From NCBI GenBank assembly GCA_017307505.1, contig JAFKEE010000033.1, positions 62,001 through 126,000 on the forward strand: a stretch of 64,000 nucleotides of DNA, given 5' to 3'. Origin of the DNA: Acidobacteriota bacterium (lineage in GTDB: Bacteria; Acidobacteriota; Terriglobia; Bryobacterales; Bryobacteraceae). Every line of letters starts with the position of its first letter. Positions within the stretch are counted from its first letter, which is position 1. The translations under genes were made by a program, and so were the position numbers. The notes below the pieces were generated by a model. That model did no database searches. It saw nothing but the letters and a program-made list of their open reading frames with translations, and was not told the origin of the DNA. Positions 1 to 6,049 of the stretch are shown in pieces.

Positions 1-465
1 CCCGTAGATGCGGTCGTCCGTTCCGAGAGTGAAGGAGCCGGTGAAGGACTCCGCCCGCCCAAGCCCGCGCGCTTCGATCTGATGACAGACTGTACAGCTG
101 ACACCTTCGCGGCCAAGGCTCGTCAGCCCGGCCAGTGCCAACTGCGTCCCGGCAATGCGTTTCGGGTACTGATCGATGGGTGCATGGCACCGCAGGCATT
201 TGTCTTCAATTGCCCGGGCTTCGGAAGGAGCGAGCGCCGTTTCAAAGGCGATCTTGGCGCGCCAGTACGGGTCCTGCGCGGCATGAGCCATCATCGAGTT
301 CTTCCACAGGTGCGAAGGACCGACCCAGCCGGCATCATCCCGCCAGGATCCGCCGGCATTCGGGATGCGGGTATGGCAAAGGGCGCAGGCCTGCTCCGGC
401 AGAAAGCGGGCGGGTTGCTGGGCGGCAAGGGACAGGGTGGCAAGCAGGAAAATGAGCGGTCTCAT
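1..465 (-). CDS. Multihaem c-type cytochrome, exported (C-terminus beyond window)
   Basis: The leftward reading frame stays open from an ATG at 465 to the window edge (155 codons), so the C-terminus is missing. The N-terminus is a signal peptide (MRPLIFLLATLSLAAQ). Three haem c attachment motifs are visible: CALCH near residue 28, CLRCH near residue 91 and CTVCH near residue 127. The spacing is that of a multihaem cytochrome c rather than a mono-haem cytochrome. By family knowledge it should be periplasmic and carry electrons; the partner and substrate cannot be told. Its ATG overlaps the stop codon of the upstream sigma factor (ATGA at 462-465), so the two are probably translationally coupled. 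This would also explain the absence of an obvious ribosome binding site of its own. Confidence 0.85.
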   Translation of the reverse strand, partial: MRPLIFLLATLSLAAQQPARFLPEQACALCHTRIPNAGGSWRDDAGWVGPSHLWKNSMMAHAAQDPYWRAKIAFETALAPSEARAIEDKCLRCHAPIDQYPKRIAGTQLALAGLTSLGREGVSCTVCHQIEARGLGRAESFTGSFTLGTDDRIYG

Positions 466-1076
466 GATGGGACTCCGGCGTTCCGGTTCAGCGAATTTCT
501 CAGCACGATCCGTGCGCGTCTCAGGCGCGTTCGGACAGCCATTTCTGTAATGTTCAGGCAGGCGGCAGTTTCCTTCGTGGAGAGCTGGTCCAGCACACGA
601 AGTTGAAACACCTGGTTGAGGAGGGGGGGCAGGGACTGGGCTGCGCCAGCGAGGGTTCCGGCGGTTTCGCGCACGATGAGGAGGTCGATCGGAGAATCCG
701 GTTGACGGAGGGGCACTAACTGGAGGCCATCCGAGAAGTCGTCAAAGGCGGGCGGAGCGAACCTGCTTTTGCGGCGGCGCTCGCGAAAACGATTGCGGGC
801 GATAGCCGTCAGCCAGTGCATTAGTAGATGCGGCTGTTTCAGGCTACTAAGCCCCTGGAAGGCCAGTGCCAGAGTCTCCTGCGCCAGATCCTGGGCCTCG
901 TCGGCATCCTGGCAGATGCGTAGCGCGTGCCGGTAGGCCGACGAATAGATGCGCTCGAATAGGAGCTCAATCGCGACACGGTTGCCGCGCGCGGACTGCC
1001 GGATGAGACAGCGGCGCGCCTGGCAGGAAGCGGTCTTCTGGGCAGTCAGGCACGGCGAATCACAAAATCTGGTCAT
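462..1076 (-). CDS. ECF-type RNA polymerase sigma factor
   Basis: About 204 residues with the two-domain ECF layout. Region 2 is near residues 35-95 (helix DADEAQDLAQETLALAF, then a basic NRFRERRRKSR stretch). Region 4 is a helix-turn-helix near 150-190 (LSTKETAACLNITEMAVRTR). A TTG at 1091 is in frame, but the ATG at 1076 is preferred; neither start has a clear Shine-Dalgarno. The N-terminal 25 residues contain four cysteines, unusual for ECF factors and possibly metal- or redox-binding. No anti-sigma gene is adjacent: the next gene is the multihaem cytochrome, coupled through an ATGA overlap. It would direct RNA polymerase to a dedicated promoter set that cannot be read from this window. 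Confidence 0.82.
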   Translation of the reverse strand: MTRFCDSPCLTAQKTASCQARRCLIRQSARGNRVAIELLFERIYSSAYRHALRICQDADEAQDLAQETLALAFQGLSSLKQPHLLMHWLTAIARNRFRERRRKSRFAPPAFDDFSDGLQLVPLRQPDSPIDLLIVRETAGTLAGAAQSLPPLLNQVFQLRVLDQLSTKETAACLNITEMAVRTRLRRARIVLRNSLNRNAGVPS

Positions 1077-1107
1077 GACAGCATCGGCCAAGAGCGTATC
1101 GTAAATG

Positions 1108-1157: not shown

Positions 1158-1895
1158 CTAGTCGCGGAGAACAAGCGTTTTGCCACTCGCGTCCGTCAAC
1201 TGCAGCGCTACCAGTTCGTCAGTGCAGGTGGAGAGCACGTATTTGACTGTGATGGTGGCTCCTACGTTGAGCTCAAAATCGCTGGCGAGGATCAGCCGTT
1301 CCGAGCCCAGCTTCACGCTGAGCAGCGAGGCATCGGCCAGCCGCAGGACAAGCGTCGGCTGCTGGATCCCCAGGCCCACATTGACGCGGTCGATGACGCC
1401 CGTAGCGGTTTTCGCGGTGGCGAGATCGATGCAGGCTCCGCAACTGGCCGGGCCCTGAGGCTGGACCCCATGGCCGCCCGGATTAATCCAGACCGGCACG
1501 CCGAGAGAGTCTCGCAAGGTGAGGCTGGTCGCGCCTTTGGTGATCCGGACTGCGTATAAGTAGGAGTCGGCGGTATTGTTCGACGGCGCGGCAAGGACGG
1601 AAACCGAGTCGCCAGCCGCCAGTTCGAAATCATTCTCCAGCAGGAACCAGATAGGTGCCAGCTTGATTTGGGTCTGATTGACGACGATGGAGGGATACTG
1701 CACGCCGTAGCCAATCTGGACACTGGTGATGGGGCCTGCAATGGTCTTCTGGGCCGTCATATTGAGCCCGGTGTGGGCCGGCTGGGTGCCGCCGTTTCCA
1801 CTAGCGGGAGCGGCCGGTCCGTTGTGGCCCTGGGCGAGGACAGCTGCCGCGGCCAGCACGGACGAGGACAGCAGGGAAAAGAATCTGCGATTCAT
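1158..1895 (-). CDS. Secreted protein with two copies of an unrecognised ~75-residue domain
   Basis: 245 residues from the ATG at 1895, which has GGAGAT six bases upstream; the longer open frame to 1979 lacks a signal peptide at its start. The signal peptide is MNRRFFSLLSSSVLAAAAVLAQ. Two internal repeats follow, at about 55-145 and 165-245. Both read G.I..V.vG.G.q.P..v, then a hydrophobic strand, a .ENDFEL.aG-like motif, a second strand, and an ending LTLRD.LG.PVW or LVLRD. The protein starting at 2454 carries a third copy. I do not recognise the family. A small beta-rich envelope domain is an inference from the alternating strand pattern. The gene lies behind a sigma-54-like promoter and ahead of the ECF sigma factor and cytochrome. 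Confidence 0.78.
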   Translation of the reverse strand: MNRRFFSLLSSSVLAAAAVLAQGHNGPAAPASGNGGTQPAHTGLNMTAQKTIAGPITSVQIGYGVQYPSIVVNQTQIKLAPIWFLLENDFELAAGDSVSVLAAPSNNTADSYLYAVRITKGATSLTLRDSLGVPVWINPGGHGVQPQGPASCGACIDLATAKTATGVIDRVNVGLGIQQPTLVLRLADASLLSVKLGSERLILASDFELNVGATITVKYVLSTCTDELVALQLTDASGKTLVLRD

Positions 1896-1939
1896 GGTGG
1901 ATCTCCATTCGTGAGGAATTCTGCGAACGCATATGGTGG

Positions 1940-1955
1940 TGCAACTCGCACTCCA
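1940..1955 (-). promoter_or_regulatory. Candidate sigma-54 (-24/-12) promoter, leftward
   Basis: Read leftward the site is TGGAGTGCGAGTTGCA. It fits TGGCACG-N4-TTGCW at 9 of 12 defined positions, including the invariant GG and GC with the required 10-nt spacing. The predicted start would be near 1928, about 33 nt before the ATG at 1895. It shares a 340-bp intergenic region with an opposite sigma-54-like site, next to a gene for an NtrC-family activator. Assignment is by motif and context only. Confidence 0.55.
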
Positions 1956-2153
1956 ATCGGTAAGCGATTGAAAATGCATTGACTTCGCTCACCGCCAGGA
2001 AGCCCGGAGCGCAGCATTTGCACTTTCCCCGGCCAAGGGCCGCAGGGACTGCGCGGCGGAGCGGGAATCTGCCCTCGAAGCGCAGCAGCATCGGCTCATC
2101 CAGTTGTGCAGGAATTGCGCGGCGGCCGTGCGCCGTTTGCGCGGTCTGCCGGG

Positions 2154-2169
2154 CTTTCCATATGGAAAG
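2154..2169. promoter_or_regulatory. 16-bp perfect palindrome, candidate activator or repressor site
   Basis: CTTTCCATATGGAAAG is fully self-complementary and lies in the divergent intergenic region 1896-2235, 25 bp upstream of the rightward -24 element. It is A+T-rich at its centre, unlike its surroundings. The 7-mer TGCGCGG also recurs at 2050, 2116 and 2138 (spacings of 66 and 22 bp). Either element could bind the Fis-type HTH of the response regulator. The rest of the intergenic region shows nothing I can name. Confidence 0.5.
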
Positions 2170-2194
2170 AAAAAGGATTGCCGCCTTTGCGATA

Positions 2195-2210
2195 TGGCTT
2201 TCGAACTGCA
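2195..2210 (+). promoter_or_regulatory. Candidate sigma-54 (-24/-12) promoter, rightward
   Basis: TGGCTTTCGAACTGCA matches the -24 TGGC and -12 TGCA cores with the invariant GG-N10-GC spacing (8 of 12 consensus positions). The predicted start is near 2221, 15 nt before the ATG at 2236. It would serve the small Cys-rich gene, the repeat-domain gene and possibly the kinase and activator genes, giving positive autoregulation. Confidence 0.55.
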
Positions 2211-2235
2211 ATGACTCTACGCAGAGGTAGACACC

Positions 2236-2433
2236 ATGAGAACAACAATCGCGATGCTGGTTTTTTGTGTGGCACTGGCGGCGCCGCTTGCCGCGGCCCG
2301 AGGCAACTGCCAGGGCCGGGGCCAGGGACAAGGCAGGGGCAAGGGTCAACAATGCAGTGGCCAGTGCGAACGGAAGCAATGCCAGAATTGCGCCAAAGCG
2401 GAATCCTGCCCCCGGGCACAGGCCAGGAAGTAA
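2236..2433 (+). CDS. Very small secreted Gly/Gln/Cys-rich protein
   Basis: 65 residues. A signal peptide (MRTTIAMLVFCVALAAPLAAA) is followed by a low-complexity basic stretch of alternating G, Q and R (residues 22-38) and then a cysteine cluster (C39, C43, C48, C51, C57) in a C-x3-C-x4-C-x2-C-x5-C pattern; C25 precedes it. AGAGG lies 8 nt before the ATG. No family is recognised. The spacing suggests metal or thiol binding in the periplasm, comparable in role (not sequence) to periplasmic metal-binding accessory proteins of stress two-component systems. It is the first gene behind the rightward sigma-54-like promoter, and the next gene starts 20 bp after its stop. Confidence 0.68.
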   Translation: MRTTIAMLVFCVALAAPLAAARGNCQGRGQGQGRGKGQQCSGQCERKQCQNCAKAESCPRAQARK

Positions 2434-2453
2434 GACGGAGCGGAGGTCGTGTT

Positions 2454-2849
2454 ATGAAGAACTGGCTACTGTGGTTATTCCTTGCGTCGTCGCCGGTGTG
2501 GGCCGGCGACGAACAAAAGCCGCCCATCGCTGAACAGCCTGTCGTTGAGGTGTCCGGCACCATCACTCGCGTCCAGATCGCCCTCGGTGAGGGCATGCCA
2601 TACCTGGAAGTCAAGACCGCCAAGGATGTGGTGAAACTGTATCTCGGGTCCATGCGGTACCTGGTGCAGGAGAATTTCACTCCCAAGGCCGGGGACGCGC
2701 TGGAGGCGAAGGGCTACAAGATGAGCGACAGTGTCGTGGCGATTCGCGTCGAGCTGCCCGCCAGCAAAAAAGTACTGAGACTTCGGGATGAAAACGGTTG
2801 GCCGCTCTGGATGGGGGGCATGCGCCGCGGCAGGAACAATAGCAAATAA
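2454..2849 (+). CDS. Secreted single-copy version of the repeat domain
   Basis: 131 residues. The start is fixed by a strong GGAGGT at 2442-2447 before the ATG at 2454. The signal peptide is MKNWLLWLFLASSPVWAG. Residues ~32-120 form one copy of the domain found twice in the protein encoded at 1158-1895: SGTITRVQIALGEGMPYLEV, a second strand, a .QENFTPKAGD motif, then LRLRDENGWPLW. The last dozen residues are Gly/Met/Arg-rich (MGGMRRGRNNSK). It is probably periplasmic or envelope-attached. It lies between the Cys-rich gene and the kinase gene in one direction, so it is likely part of the same sigma-54-dependent transcript. Confidence 0.78.
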   Translation: MKNWLLWLFLASSPVWAGDEQKPPIAEQPVVEVSGTITRVQIALGEGMPYLEVKTAKDVVKLYLGSMRYLVQENFTPKAGDALEAKGYKMSDSVVAIRVELPASKKVLRLRDENGWPLWMGGMRRGRNNSK

Positions 2850-2905: not shown

Positions 2906-4012
2906 ATGGCTCCGTCTCAAGCAAGGCTGATCTGGCGTGCGGCGGCCGGCGTGCTGCTCGTGCTGCCGCTGGTCCTGATCGCCAATGCATTGCTGATGTT
3001 ACGGGAACTGGAGCAGGCGCGCGGAGCTTTCCTACGCGATAAGGCAGCCGAAATCGCCACCCGGCTCGAACAGATTCCGGTGGCCCGGTTGATTGACGAC
3101 GAGCCCGCAGTGCTTGACGTCCGAACCTACGGGCCGGCGGATGCCAAGGTCGAACCCTCCATCCGCCCCTTCTTTGATGGCCAGGAGCTGTTCCGTGTCG
3201 AGCAAAACAGCCGGGCAAACTTTCGGGCCTGGGTTCCCTATCACACCGTGGGCGAGACCAGGCTGGCCCGGTTGGACCTGAATCCGGCCGCCGCCGATTT
3301 CCTTACCGCTCGTCCGAGGCAAAACCTCTACTTGTCCATCGCCGTGGCCGTGGTGATGGGCCTGTTGACGGCGTACACGGCTTGGGCTCGTGAGAAGCAG
3401 GCGCGGCTGGCCCGCCTGGCCGAACTGGGCGAGATGTCGGCCGTACTCGCACACGAGATCCGGAATCCACTGGGCGCTCTCAAGGGATTCCTGCAACTTG
3501 CGCAGGAGCAGTCCACCGGAGATGCGCGCCTCTGGCTGGCTACTTCGCTGGAGCAGACCAGCCGCCTGGAGCAGCTCGTAAAAGACCTGCTCGCCTATGC
3601 CCGAGTCCCGCAGCCGAAATGGCAGGAGGTCCGCTGGGAGGAAATGGAAATGCGCTTGCGTCCGCATGCCCCCGGCGCCCTGTTCAGGCCCGCGGAGTTC
3701 AGTCTCCGAACAGATCCGGACATGCTGGAGCAAGCCGTACTGAATCTTCTGCGCAATGCGATGGATGCCGGAACCGAGGTCCGCCTGGAAGCGGCAGCAG
3801 GCTGGATCCGCATTACCGACAACGGGCCCGGCCTGCCCCCGGAGATCCGGCGGAAACTCTTCCAGCCCTTTGTGACAACGAAGGCGCAGGGCACCGGGCT
3901 GGGTCTGGTGATTGTTCGAAACCTGGTAAATGCCTTGCACGGCGAACTCGTGCTGCGCGACGCAAAGCCGGCCGGTACCTGTGCGGAGATCCGATGGAGC
4001 ACGAAACGATGA
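2906..4012 (+). CDS. Membrane sensor histidine kinase (NtrB/ZraS-like)
   Basis: 368 residues. Two membrane helices (about 9-32 and 140-160) bracket a ~105-residue extracytoplasmic domain with no recognised fold. No HAMP is obvious; helix two runs almost directly into the dimerisation domain. The H-box is AHEIRNPLGAL with the phospho-acceptor at H183. The ATPase domain has the N-box (N284 in NLLRNAMDAG), G1 (DNGPG, 305-309) and G2 (GTGLGL, 329-334). AGGTGT lies just before the ATG. Its stop overlaps the next gene's start as ATGA, so kinase and activator form a cognate pair. By family knowledge it autophosphorylates and passes phosphate to D52 of that regulator. The signal is unknown. Confidence 0.92.
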   Translation: MAPSQARLIWRAAAGVLLVLPLVLIANALLMLRELEQARGAFLRDKAAEIATRLEQIPVARLIDDEPAVLDVRTYGPADAKVEPSIRPFFDGQELFRVEQNSRANFRAWVPYHTVGETRLARLDLNPAAADFLTARPRQNLYLSIAVAVVMGLLTAYTAWAREKQARLARLAELGEMSAVLAHEIRNPLGALKGFLQLAQEQSTGDARLWLATSLEQTSRLEQLVKDLLAYARVPQPKWQEVRWEEMEMRLRPHAPGALFRPAEFSLRTDPDMLEQAVLNLLRNAMDAGTEVRLEAAAGWIRITDNGPGLPPEIRRKLFQPFVTTKAQGTGLGLVIVRNLVNALHGELVLRDAKPAGTCAEIRWSTKR

Positions 4013-5349
4013 ATCCGATTCTGGTGGTTGACGACGATCCCGGTTTTCGCAAATTGTTGGAGACCATCCTCGCCGGCGAAGGCTATCCTGTCGAGACTGC
4101 GGCCAAAGTGGGCGAGGCGCGGCGCCTGTGCGGAACTCGAGGCTATTCGCTTGTGGTCTCGGATCTGAAACTGCCGGACGGAGATGGCCTTGATGTGCAG
4201 AAGTGGTTCGCCGAACACGCCCCCAGGACACCGTTCGTTCTGATCACCGGCTTTGGTACGGTTTCGACGGCGGTCGACGCCATGAAGCGCGGCGCGCTGG
4301 ACTATCTGGAGAAGCCGCTGCGCAGTCCGGACGAACTGCGGCGCATTGTCCGCCGGGCCCTGGCCCTGGACAACGCCGGCACCGAGGCACCGGGAGCCCC
4401 GCAGCCGGCTGCTGGCGAATCAGGCGGCATGTGCGGCTCCATGGTGGCACGCGATCAGCGAATGCTTCACATCCTGGGTCTTCTTCAGCGCGTCGCTCCG
4501 ACCCCGGCCACCGTACTGCTGCTCGGCGAGAGTGGTGTCGGGAAAGAGGTGATCGCACGCTGCCTCCACGCCAACAGCCGCCGCGCCTCAAAGCCATTCG
4601 TCGCCGTGAACTGTGCCGCGCTGGCGCCCACCCTGATCGAAAGCGAACTGTTCGGACACGAGCGGGGCTCCTTCACCGGAGCTACCGACCGTCACAGCGG
4701 CGTCTTTGAGCGTGCTGACGGCGGCACCCTGTTTCTGGACGAAATCGGGGAACTGGACGCGGCCCTCCAGTCGAAGCTGCTGCGTGTTCTGCAGGAGCGT
4801 GTGTTTGAACGAGTAGGTGGTGGCAAGCCCGTCGAGGTGGATGTCCGTGTCATCGCGGCAACGAACCAGGACCTTGCCCGCGCGGTACAGGAAGGACGGT
4901 TCCGCTCGGATCTCTACTTTCGCCTCAGCACGTTTCCCATCGACATTCCGCCGCTGCGCGAGCGGCCTGCGGATATTGACGCGCTGGCTGAACTTTTCCT
5001 GGAGCGGGCGGCCAGGCGTTTTGAGAAGAACAATCTCCGCCTCAGCGACGAGGCTCGCTATGCCCTGCGTGCGCACTCGTGGCCGGGCAACGTCCGCGAG
5101 TTGGAGAACGTGATGGAACGAGCGGCGATTCTGGCGGACACCGTGGTGCTGCCGGAGCATTTCCCCTTCACCGCACCGGGTGCCGTCATCTCCCCCGGCG
5201 CCGGACCTCTCAACATGCGCGATCTGGAGCGGCGCGCCATTGCAGAGGCGCTCAAGCGCCACGACGGCAACCGCACGCATGCGGCACGGGAACTGGGCAT
5301 CAGCCTGCGGACACTTCAATACCGTCTAAAAGAGTATGGACTCGGCTGA
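4009..5349 (+). CDS. NtrC-family sigma-54-dependent response regulator
   Basis: 446 residues from the ATG at 4009 (an in-frame ATG at 3994 is less likely because it extends further into the kinase gene). The receiver domain spans 1-115 with phospho-acceptor D52 (VVSDLKLPDGDG) and K102. The AAA+ domain spans about 141-380: Walker A GESGVGKE (173-180), the sigma-54-contacting GSFTGA loop (220-225) and Walker B GTLFLDEIG (239-247). The C-terminal Fis-type HTH (~415-446) includes GNRTHAARELGISLRTLQYR. It should hydrolyse ATP to open sigma-54 promoter complexes. Two sigma-54-like sites lie 1.8 and 2.1 kb upstream in the locus, making a self-contained circuit likely. Confidence 0.93.
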   Translation: MNPILVVDDDPGFRKLLETILAGEGYPVETAAKVGEARRLCGTRGYSLVVSDLKLPDGDGLDVQKWFAEHAPRTPFVLITGFGTVSTAVDAMKRGALDYLEKPLRSPDELRRIVRRALALDNAGTEAPGAPQPAAGESGGMCGSMVARDQRMLHILGLLQRVAPTPATVLLLGESGVGKEVIARCLHANSRRASKPFVAVNCAALAPTLIESELFGHERGSFTGATDRHSGVFERADGGTLFLDEIGELDAALQSKLLRVLQERVFERVGGGKPVEVDVRVIAATNQDLARAVQEGRFRSDLYFRLSTFPIDIPPLRERPADIDALAELFLERAARRFEKNNLRLSDEARYALRAHSWPGNVRELENVMERAAILADTVVLPEHFPFTAPGAVISPGAGPLNMRDLERRAIAEALKRHDGNRTHAARELGISLRTLQYRLKEYGLG

Positions 5350-5713: not shown

Positions 5714-6049
5714 ATGAACAAGCTCAAGACGCTCTTTTTCGCCGCAGCCCTCACGATCGCCAGCCTGACTCCTATCTACGCAAAGTCGTACGATTTCTCA
5801 CTTTCGGCTCCCGTAACCGCCGGAACCGTGACGTTGGAACCCGGCCGGTACACCGTGAAGGTGGACGGAACCAGTGCCAAGTTGATCCTGGCCAAGAACA
5901 ACAAAGCCATCGAAGTGCCGCTGAAGGTAGCGGAAGGGACCACGAAGTTCAGGACGACGGCGATCAACACCAAGAGAGGGGCAGCCGCCACCGAATTGAC
6001 GTCCATTGACCTGGGCGGCTCCAAGATGAGAGTGGAATTCACCAAGTAG
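5714..6049 (+). CDS. Small secreted protein of unknown function
   Basis: 111 residues from the ATG at 5714, preceded by AGGGAAA; the longer open frame to 5672 places the signal peptide internally and is rejected. The signal peptide (MNKLKTLFFAAALTIASLTPIYA) leads into a ~85-residue domain of short beta-type stretches: YDFSLSAPVTAGTVTLEPGRY, VDGTSAKLILAKNNKAIEVP, a Thr-rich segment, then LGGSKMRVEFTK. Proteins of this size and pattern (secreted, LxPGxY, ending in G.. .I.F) recur in Acidobacteriota genomes, but no function is assigned that I know of. It is monocistronic and convergent with the gene ending at 6273. Confidence 0.75.
   Translation: MNKLKTLFFAAALTIASLTPIYAKSYDFSLSAPVTAGTVTLEPGRYTVKVDGTSAKLILAKNNKAIEVPLKVAEGTTKFRTTAINTKRGAAATELTSIDLGGSKMRVEFTK

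Follow-up and report, generated by a model that had tools for sequence, protein, structure and literature searches.

Two divergent genes in the window, the whole 64-kb stretch of soil acidobacterium DNA analysed here, code for proteins that share a repeat domain. This raises the question of what the domain is and what two such proteins do on either side of one control region. Both reading frames were found: D2 (P0001) is a two-domain protein of 245 aa (1158–1895, minus strand) and D1 (P0002) is a single-domain protein of 131 aa (2454–2849, plus strand). The signal peptides proposed in the earlier note were judged by eye, and both N-termini are signal-peptide-like. D1 and D2 are probably exported. 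The proposal of one repeat domain common to D1 and both halves of D2 was upheld, because all three copies score far higher than shuffled controls with profiles free of window sequences. With a profile of 31 single-domain relatives, none of them from the window so that circularity was avoided, the two D2 copies score 39.5 and 29.6 bits, while none of 10,000 shuffled sequences exceeds 13.4 bits. Conversely, D1 scores 41–53 bits with profiles of two-domain relatives. Searched against its own genome, the D1 domain finds itself and the two D2 copies (E 0.0015 and 0.0029), and a sensitive profile search adds a further two-domain gene in the same genome (G000:C13:13462-14073).

According to predicted structure and profile, the domain spans about residues 30–121 of D1 (2541–2816, plus strand) and residues 49–137 of D2 in copy 1 (1485–1751, minus strand). 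Copy 2 occupies residues 162–245 of D2 (1161–1412, minus strand). The ending L.LRD..G.P.W, described earlier for all copies, is complete in two of them. D2 copy 2 is without the G.P.W tail because the gene stops right after LRD. A tail of the ..G.P.W type is retained in ten relatives of D2, and the end of D2 (1158–1163) may be a recent truncation of the last tail in this genome. Six residues, G35, L110, R111, G115, P117, and W119 in P0002 numbering, are invariant or nearly so in every subgroup, and they look structural. Separately, two cysteines are kept in nearly all two-domain relatives (alignment A2), C155 in the linker and about C226 in the strand 4–5 loop of the second barrel. They may form a disulphide or act together as a pair of ligands.

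The sequences of D1 and D2 alone gave nothing significant in Pfam, NCBIfam, or PDB sequence searches, and a PDB profile search with the 59-row family alignment gave nothing convincing. A DUF5666 match (E 0.18) was set aside, and a match of P0002 to an E. coli plasmid sequence (E 0.04) was judged to be chance. The domain had been called undescribed, and this stands in so far as it exceeds the cut-off of no Pfam or NCBIfam model. However, profile searches among 59 relatives gave 14 matches to the magnetosome protein MamS (best 3.3e-5) and 8 to MamX (best 3.9e-4), proteins that help magnetic bacteria to form magnetite. Therefore, the domain is not wholly undescribed. The best match to MamS (NF040991), with 48.4 bits (E 1.2e-12), is that of a relative elsewhere in the phylum, and it covers the entire folded part, positions 81–182 of the 186 in the profile. 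P0001 and P0002 themselves do not match MamS (NF040991); residues 74–140 of P0001 match positions 191–258 of MamX (NF040996) with E 0.016. OB folds were predicted in 2014 for MamS and for the C-terminus of MamX (PMC3905215). The profile similarity over the folded domain is significant and, on this sequence evidence, the repeat belongs to the MamS/MamX OB-domain superfamily. Of 297 genomes sampled from across the phylum, 72 contain the family, which also occurs in cyanobacteria. Its proteins carry one, two, or four copies of the domain, and the loci retrieved contain 134 domains. One four-copy protein of 501 aa (L118:8789-10294, another part of the phylum) lies directly after a kinase/NtrC pair.

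The fold was predicted with AlphaFold2. The D1 model, built on the 59-row alignment, has a mean pLDDT of 83 with a core of about 95, in the order strand, strand, strand, helix, strand, strand, short strand. The D2 model repeats this order twice at lower confidence (pLDDT 76), so that structure prediction of each repeat, the check proposed for a shared fold, gave the same strand and helix order in all three copies. The predicted structure is a five-stranded barrel with a helix between strands 3 and 4, as in an OB fold. Solved OB folds including PriB and SSB align to the D1 model with Z up to 9.9 and an rmsd of 2.2 over 73 residues. CusF is among the matches of the D2 model (Z 7.8), with rmsd 2.7 over 70 residues for the Ag(I) form and 2.0 over 66 for Cu(I)-CusF, and the match falls on D2 copy 2. 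On these models the assignment of the repeat as an OB-fold barrel domain is well supported. The shared fold alone is no evidence of function or of a shared ligand. This bears on the idea that the domain binds the classical OB ligands, nucleic acid or oligosaccharide, such as extracellular DNA or glycans of the cell wall. PriB, SSB, and anticodon-binding domains are indeed the best structural neighbours, and five of the 59 relatives weakly match a Pfam nucleic-acid OB-fold model (best 3.6e-5). However, the same fold does not imply the same ligand, D1 and D2 appear to be exported, and the neighbouring and co-regulated genes code for cytochromes, FeS proteins, DUF2202, and efflux rather than DNA or glycan functions. 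Such binding is therefore regarded as quite improbable.

The earlier note had placed one control region between the divergent genes, and the intergenic stretch agrees with this. It contains exactly two -24/-12 (sigma-54-like) sites of at least 6 bits, one per strand and each facing its gene, together with an enhancer motif. The predicted plus-strand site, TGGCTTTCGAACTGCA (2195–2210), stands 25 bp before a small Cys-rich gene that is followed by D1, and the minus-strand site, TGGAGTGCGAGTTGCA (1940–1955), stands 44 bp before D2. Both sites are imperfect, and sites of at least 8 bits number 88 in 64 kb on both strands. Upstream of D genes, -24/-12 scores are higher than upstream of other genes, with p about 1e-4 where a regulator is nearby and 1e-5 where it is not. 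From these sequence features, sigma-54 is probably used at the D1 and D2 promoters.

A dyad search upstream of D genes gave GCGCA-N5-TGCGC in 10 loci, against about 1 expected, and the refined motif gave 55 sites in 26 loci, against 4.6 expected. The sites are often paired 31 or 32 bp apart, a spacing that played no part in motif discovery; 25 pairs at 30–32 bp were counted, whereas none of 30 column-permuted controls gave more than 1. In the window, candidate enhancer AGCGCAGCATTTGCACT (2008–2024) forms a tandem pair with GCCGCAGGGACTGCGCG (2039–2055) at 31 bp. The top match in the 64 kb is TGTGCAGGAATTGCGCG (2105–2121), and a further candidate, CGCGCAGAGTTTGCATC (2874–2890), lies between D1 and the kinase gene, outside the regions on which the motif was trained. 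When the motif was retrained without the window, its three best positions in the 64 kb were 2105, 2874, and 2008, all at the D1/D2 locus. In loci outside the host's family, unused in training, the motif occurs 6 times upstream of D genes, where 1.0 would be expected. A perfect 16-bp palindrome, CTTTCCATATGGAAAG (2154–2169), stands between the enhancers and the plus-strand promoter. It was considered as the enhancer and rejected in favour of GCGCA-N5-TGCGC, as it is not among the dyads shared between loci.

The core of the 31-bp pair occurs once in the 9.4-Mb genome, at 2010–2051 of the window. The single-site pattern occurs 42 times, against 16 for a reversed control; therefore, single sites alone are not diagnostic, and the 31-bp pair is far rarer. 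Pairs at 33 bp gave 8 matches against 4 in the control and pairs at 32 bp gave 2 against 1. Therefore, only one of these was used, the 33-bp pair upstream of the Gly-rich and NapH-like genes beside the D1/D2 locus. In relatives, motif pairs stand upstream of a NapH-like gene, a multihaem cytochrome, a DUF2202 protein (ferritin-like by a weak rubrerythrin match), and an LTXXQ-family protein, and also at the end of the regulator, close to a rhodanese gene. The D1/D2 regulon is well supported. The earlier note suggested that D1 and D2 may work on one ligand or surface; what the data support is their shared regulation and their membership in one envelope redox/metal gene set. The protein binding the candidate motif is probably the NtrC-type regulator encoded nearby.

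This regulator (3994–5349, plus strand) has a receiver, a sigma-54 AAA+ domain, and a Fis HTH, and its gene follows that of a membrane histidine kinase with HisKA and HATPase_c domains (2906–4012, plus strand). Neighbourhoods were tabulated with a hexamer-scored gene caller in 42 loci from the host's family and 43 from elsewhere, the latter comprising 40 wider-phylum loci, two cyanobacterial plasmids, and the second locus of the own genome. The suspicion that NtrC/kinase pairs recur beside the family was borne out. A same-cluster NtrC-type regulator lies within three genes in 24/42 host-family loci and 14/43 other loci, against 3.1% expected, relatedness being ignored. The chance level of about 3% follows from the 41 sigma-54 activator domains of the own genome. 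No regulator stands within three genes in the other 18/42 host-family loci, in some of which the contig ends nearby. Window positions 5714–6046, after the regulator gene, code for a small exported-looking protein (111 aa) with no Pfam match.

The adjacency to a kinase/regulator pair is the strongest single linkage of the locus. It favours a reading in which the OB proteins are mainly sensory accessories that bind the periplasmic part of the kinase and provide signal or feedback, much as ZraP and CpxP do, and are not themselves directly involved in electron transfer or metal handling. The predicted D1/D2 circuit is autoregulated, and the title of a reference quoted by PMC4987338 calls ZraP a repressor of its own two-component system. 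Against this, many family members, including proteins of two to four domains, have no nearby kinase, the two-domain protein often stands apart from it, and the co-regulated genes are of electron-transfer and metal type. We consider a mainly sensory role rather unlikely.

Further genes of the locus lie on both sides of the control region. A small Cys-rich exported protein of 65 aa (2236–2433, plus strand) is encoded upstream of D1 in the same direction, and Cys-rich or Gly-rich counterparts adjoin D1 in several relatives. Downstream of D2 is an ECF sigma factor gene (462–1091, minus strand), and ECF genes adjoin D2 in several relatives. This gene seems to share a transcript with D2 and the pentahaem cytochrome, which hints that sigma-54 acts on an ECF regulon in a cascade. 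The N-terminal part of this pentahaem cytochrome c (475 aa) occupies 1–465 (minus strand). Left of the window follow the rest of its gene, then genes for a Gly-rich exported protein and a NapH-like iron-sulphur protein. Tiny Gly-rich exported proteins of the DGTGYGA/GTCDKTGPKG type (L107:5586-5900, just left of the window; L047:10724-10984; L039:6289-6468) belong to no known family; their genes adjoin NapH-like or DUF2202 genes and have the D1/D2 enhancer motif nearby. Across the loci, recurrent companions are a Cys- or Gly-rich exported protein, a CcmH-domain protein directly after D1, a multihaem cytochrome, an ECF sigma factor beside D2, a NapH-like 4Fe-4S membrane protein, DUF302, and RND efflux genes. 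Co-occurrence was counted in 150 host-family genomes, 31 of which have D1. NapH-like orthologues are present in 11 genomes, of which 10 have D1 (p 4e-7) and the eleventh is 62% complete; close pentahaem cytochromes are likewise found in 11, 9 of them with D1 (p 1e-5). The Fisher and binomial p values take no account of the shared ancestry of the genomes. A cyanobacterial relative sits in a copper-resistance island and, together with its Met/His-rich neighbours, supports a metal link, with copper or efflux context being found in a minority of loci only.

The cytochrome genes could also mean that the cluster is a module for cytochrome c export or maturation, with OB proteins assisting haem delivery or the assembly of multihaem cytochromes. 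In about ten relatives the protein encoded directly after D1 has a CcmH domain (E 1.4e-21). The usual CcmH motif is CxxC, whereas these proteins have CCW, and many D1 loci have neither a CcmH-like nor a pentahaem cytochrome gene within reach. The pentahaem cytochrome does adjoin D2 and co-occur with D1, and MamX has haem motifs alongside its predicted OB fold (PMC3905215). On balance, a maturation module is unlikely. The CcmH-type membrane proteins, with the adjacent-cysteine motif APCCWxESVAxHRSE (L063:9550-9939, L047:10244-10621, and about nine other loci), are possibly a variant thiol-redox protein tied to the D1/D2 regulon.

D1 and D2 are placed as exported helpers in an envelope redox/metal response because the architecture is ZraSR-like and the regulon leans to haem and FeS electron-transfer and metal-type proteins. 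They are most likely exported accessory proteins of a ZraSR-like, sigma-54-controlled response of this kind. In the proposed mechanism, the kinase would sense an envelope signal and its NtrC-type partner would bind the tandem enhancers. The regulator would then activate sigma-54 polymerase at the divergent promoters, one for D2 and the other for the Cys-rich gene and D1, and also at the promoter of the Gly-rich exported protein and the NapH-like iron-sulphur protein left of the window. The periplasmic OB proteins would most likely bind a metal ion, a haem or redox partner, or a damaged envelope protein, and would thereby assist the electron-transfer proteins of the regulon, in a role like that of ZraP for ZraSR and of CusF for Cus. 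It is fairly probable that D1 and D2 are in this sense MamS/MamX-type OB-fold effectors of a dedicated two-component system. The common family, the predicted OB fold, the linkage, the enhancer motif, and the co-occurrence come directly from computation, and the biochemical function of D1 and D2 is inferred. The ligand of the OB domain is the weakest and least certain step, and both ligand and stimulus are guesses. A broader reading, which is doubtful, is that exported OB-fold proteins form a widespread and uncatalogued class that handles envelope metal or redox cofactors under its own sigma-54 enhancer code, with MamS and MamX as specialised offshoots.

There are precedents for the OB fold, for the relationship to MamS and MamX, and for the ZraSR-like logic. 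What is new to the sources searched, which left most subscription journals outside, is the combination, together with the uncatalogued family and the enhancer code, and literature searches gave no description of a D1/D2 cluster in Acidobacteria. The relationship ties MamS and MamX, whose part in magnetite biomineralisation is poorly understood, to a common family in non-magnetic bacteria, in which the family function is easier to test. Since a precise enhancer code, two sites in tandem at a spacing of 31 bp, defines the regulon, a motif search can find new members, including unnamed small exported proteins.

The likeness to MamS lies in its C-terminal part of about 100 residues, which is homologous to the repeat domain and has a predicted OB fold. 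However, the 48.4 bits of the best relative are far below the MamS cut-off of 200 bits, and no mam-like or magnetosome gene was seen among the neighbours within reach. The C-terminal domain of MamX also matches, and MamX too is tied to envelope redox, whereas D1/D2-type proteins are without haem motifs and score below its cut-off of 400 bits. In enterobacteria, ZraR controls divergent sigma-54 promoters for zraP, which codes for an exported effector, and for zraSR (PMC4987338). The D1/D2 locus likewise has an exported effector adjacent to a membrane kinase and an NtrC-type regulator. It contains divergent promoter-like sites and a candidate enhancer motif that the regulator may bind; in a relative, an LTXXQ protein stands under the D1/D2-type enhancer motif. 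The difference is that the effector here is an OB barrel, not a ZraP-type protein. The regulator scores 356.8 bits against the ZraR equivalog cut-off of 760, and the kinase 92.9 bits against 479 for ZraS.

The periplasmic Cu/Ag chaperones CusF and SilF resemble D1/D2 as small exported OB barrels, and CusF structurally matches D2 copy 2. Their metal site is His/Trp/Met/Met (PMC10656224). It is not conserved in the D1/D2 family, which also gives no sequence match to them: no His is conserved, and Met48 and Met67 are kept at only about 80% and in the D1 subgroup only. A search for a metal-binding site among the conserved residues found none, no Cys, His, or Met being invariant in the domain, and the kinase sensor region has no conserved metal ligands in 22 homologues. 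CusF and SilF have been called the only OB-fold proteins with metal binding as their sole function (PMC10656224), and a further class of this kind beside them would be notable.
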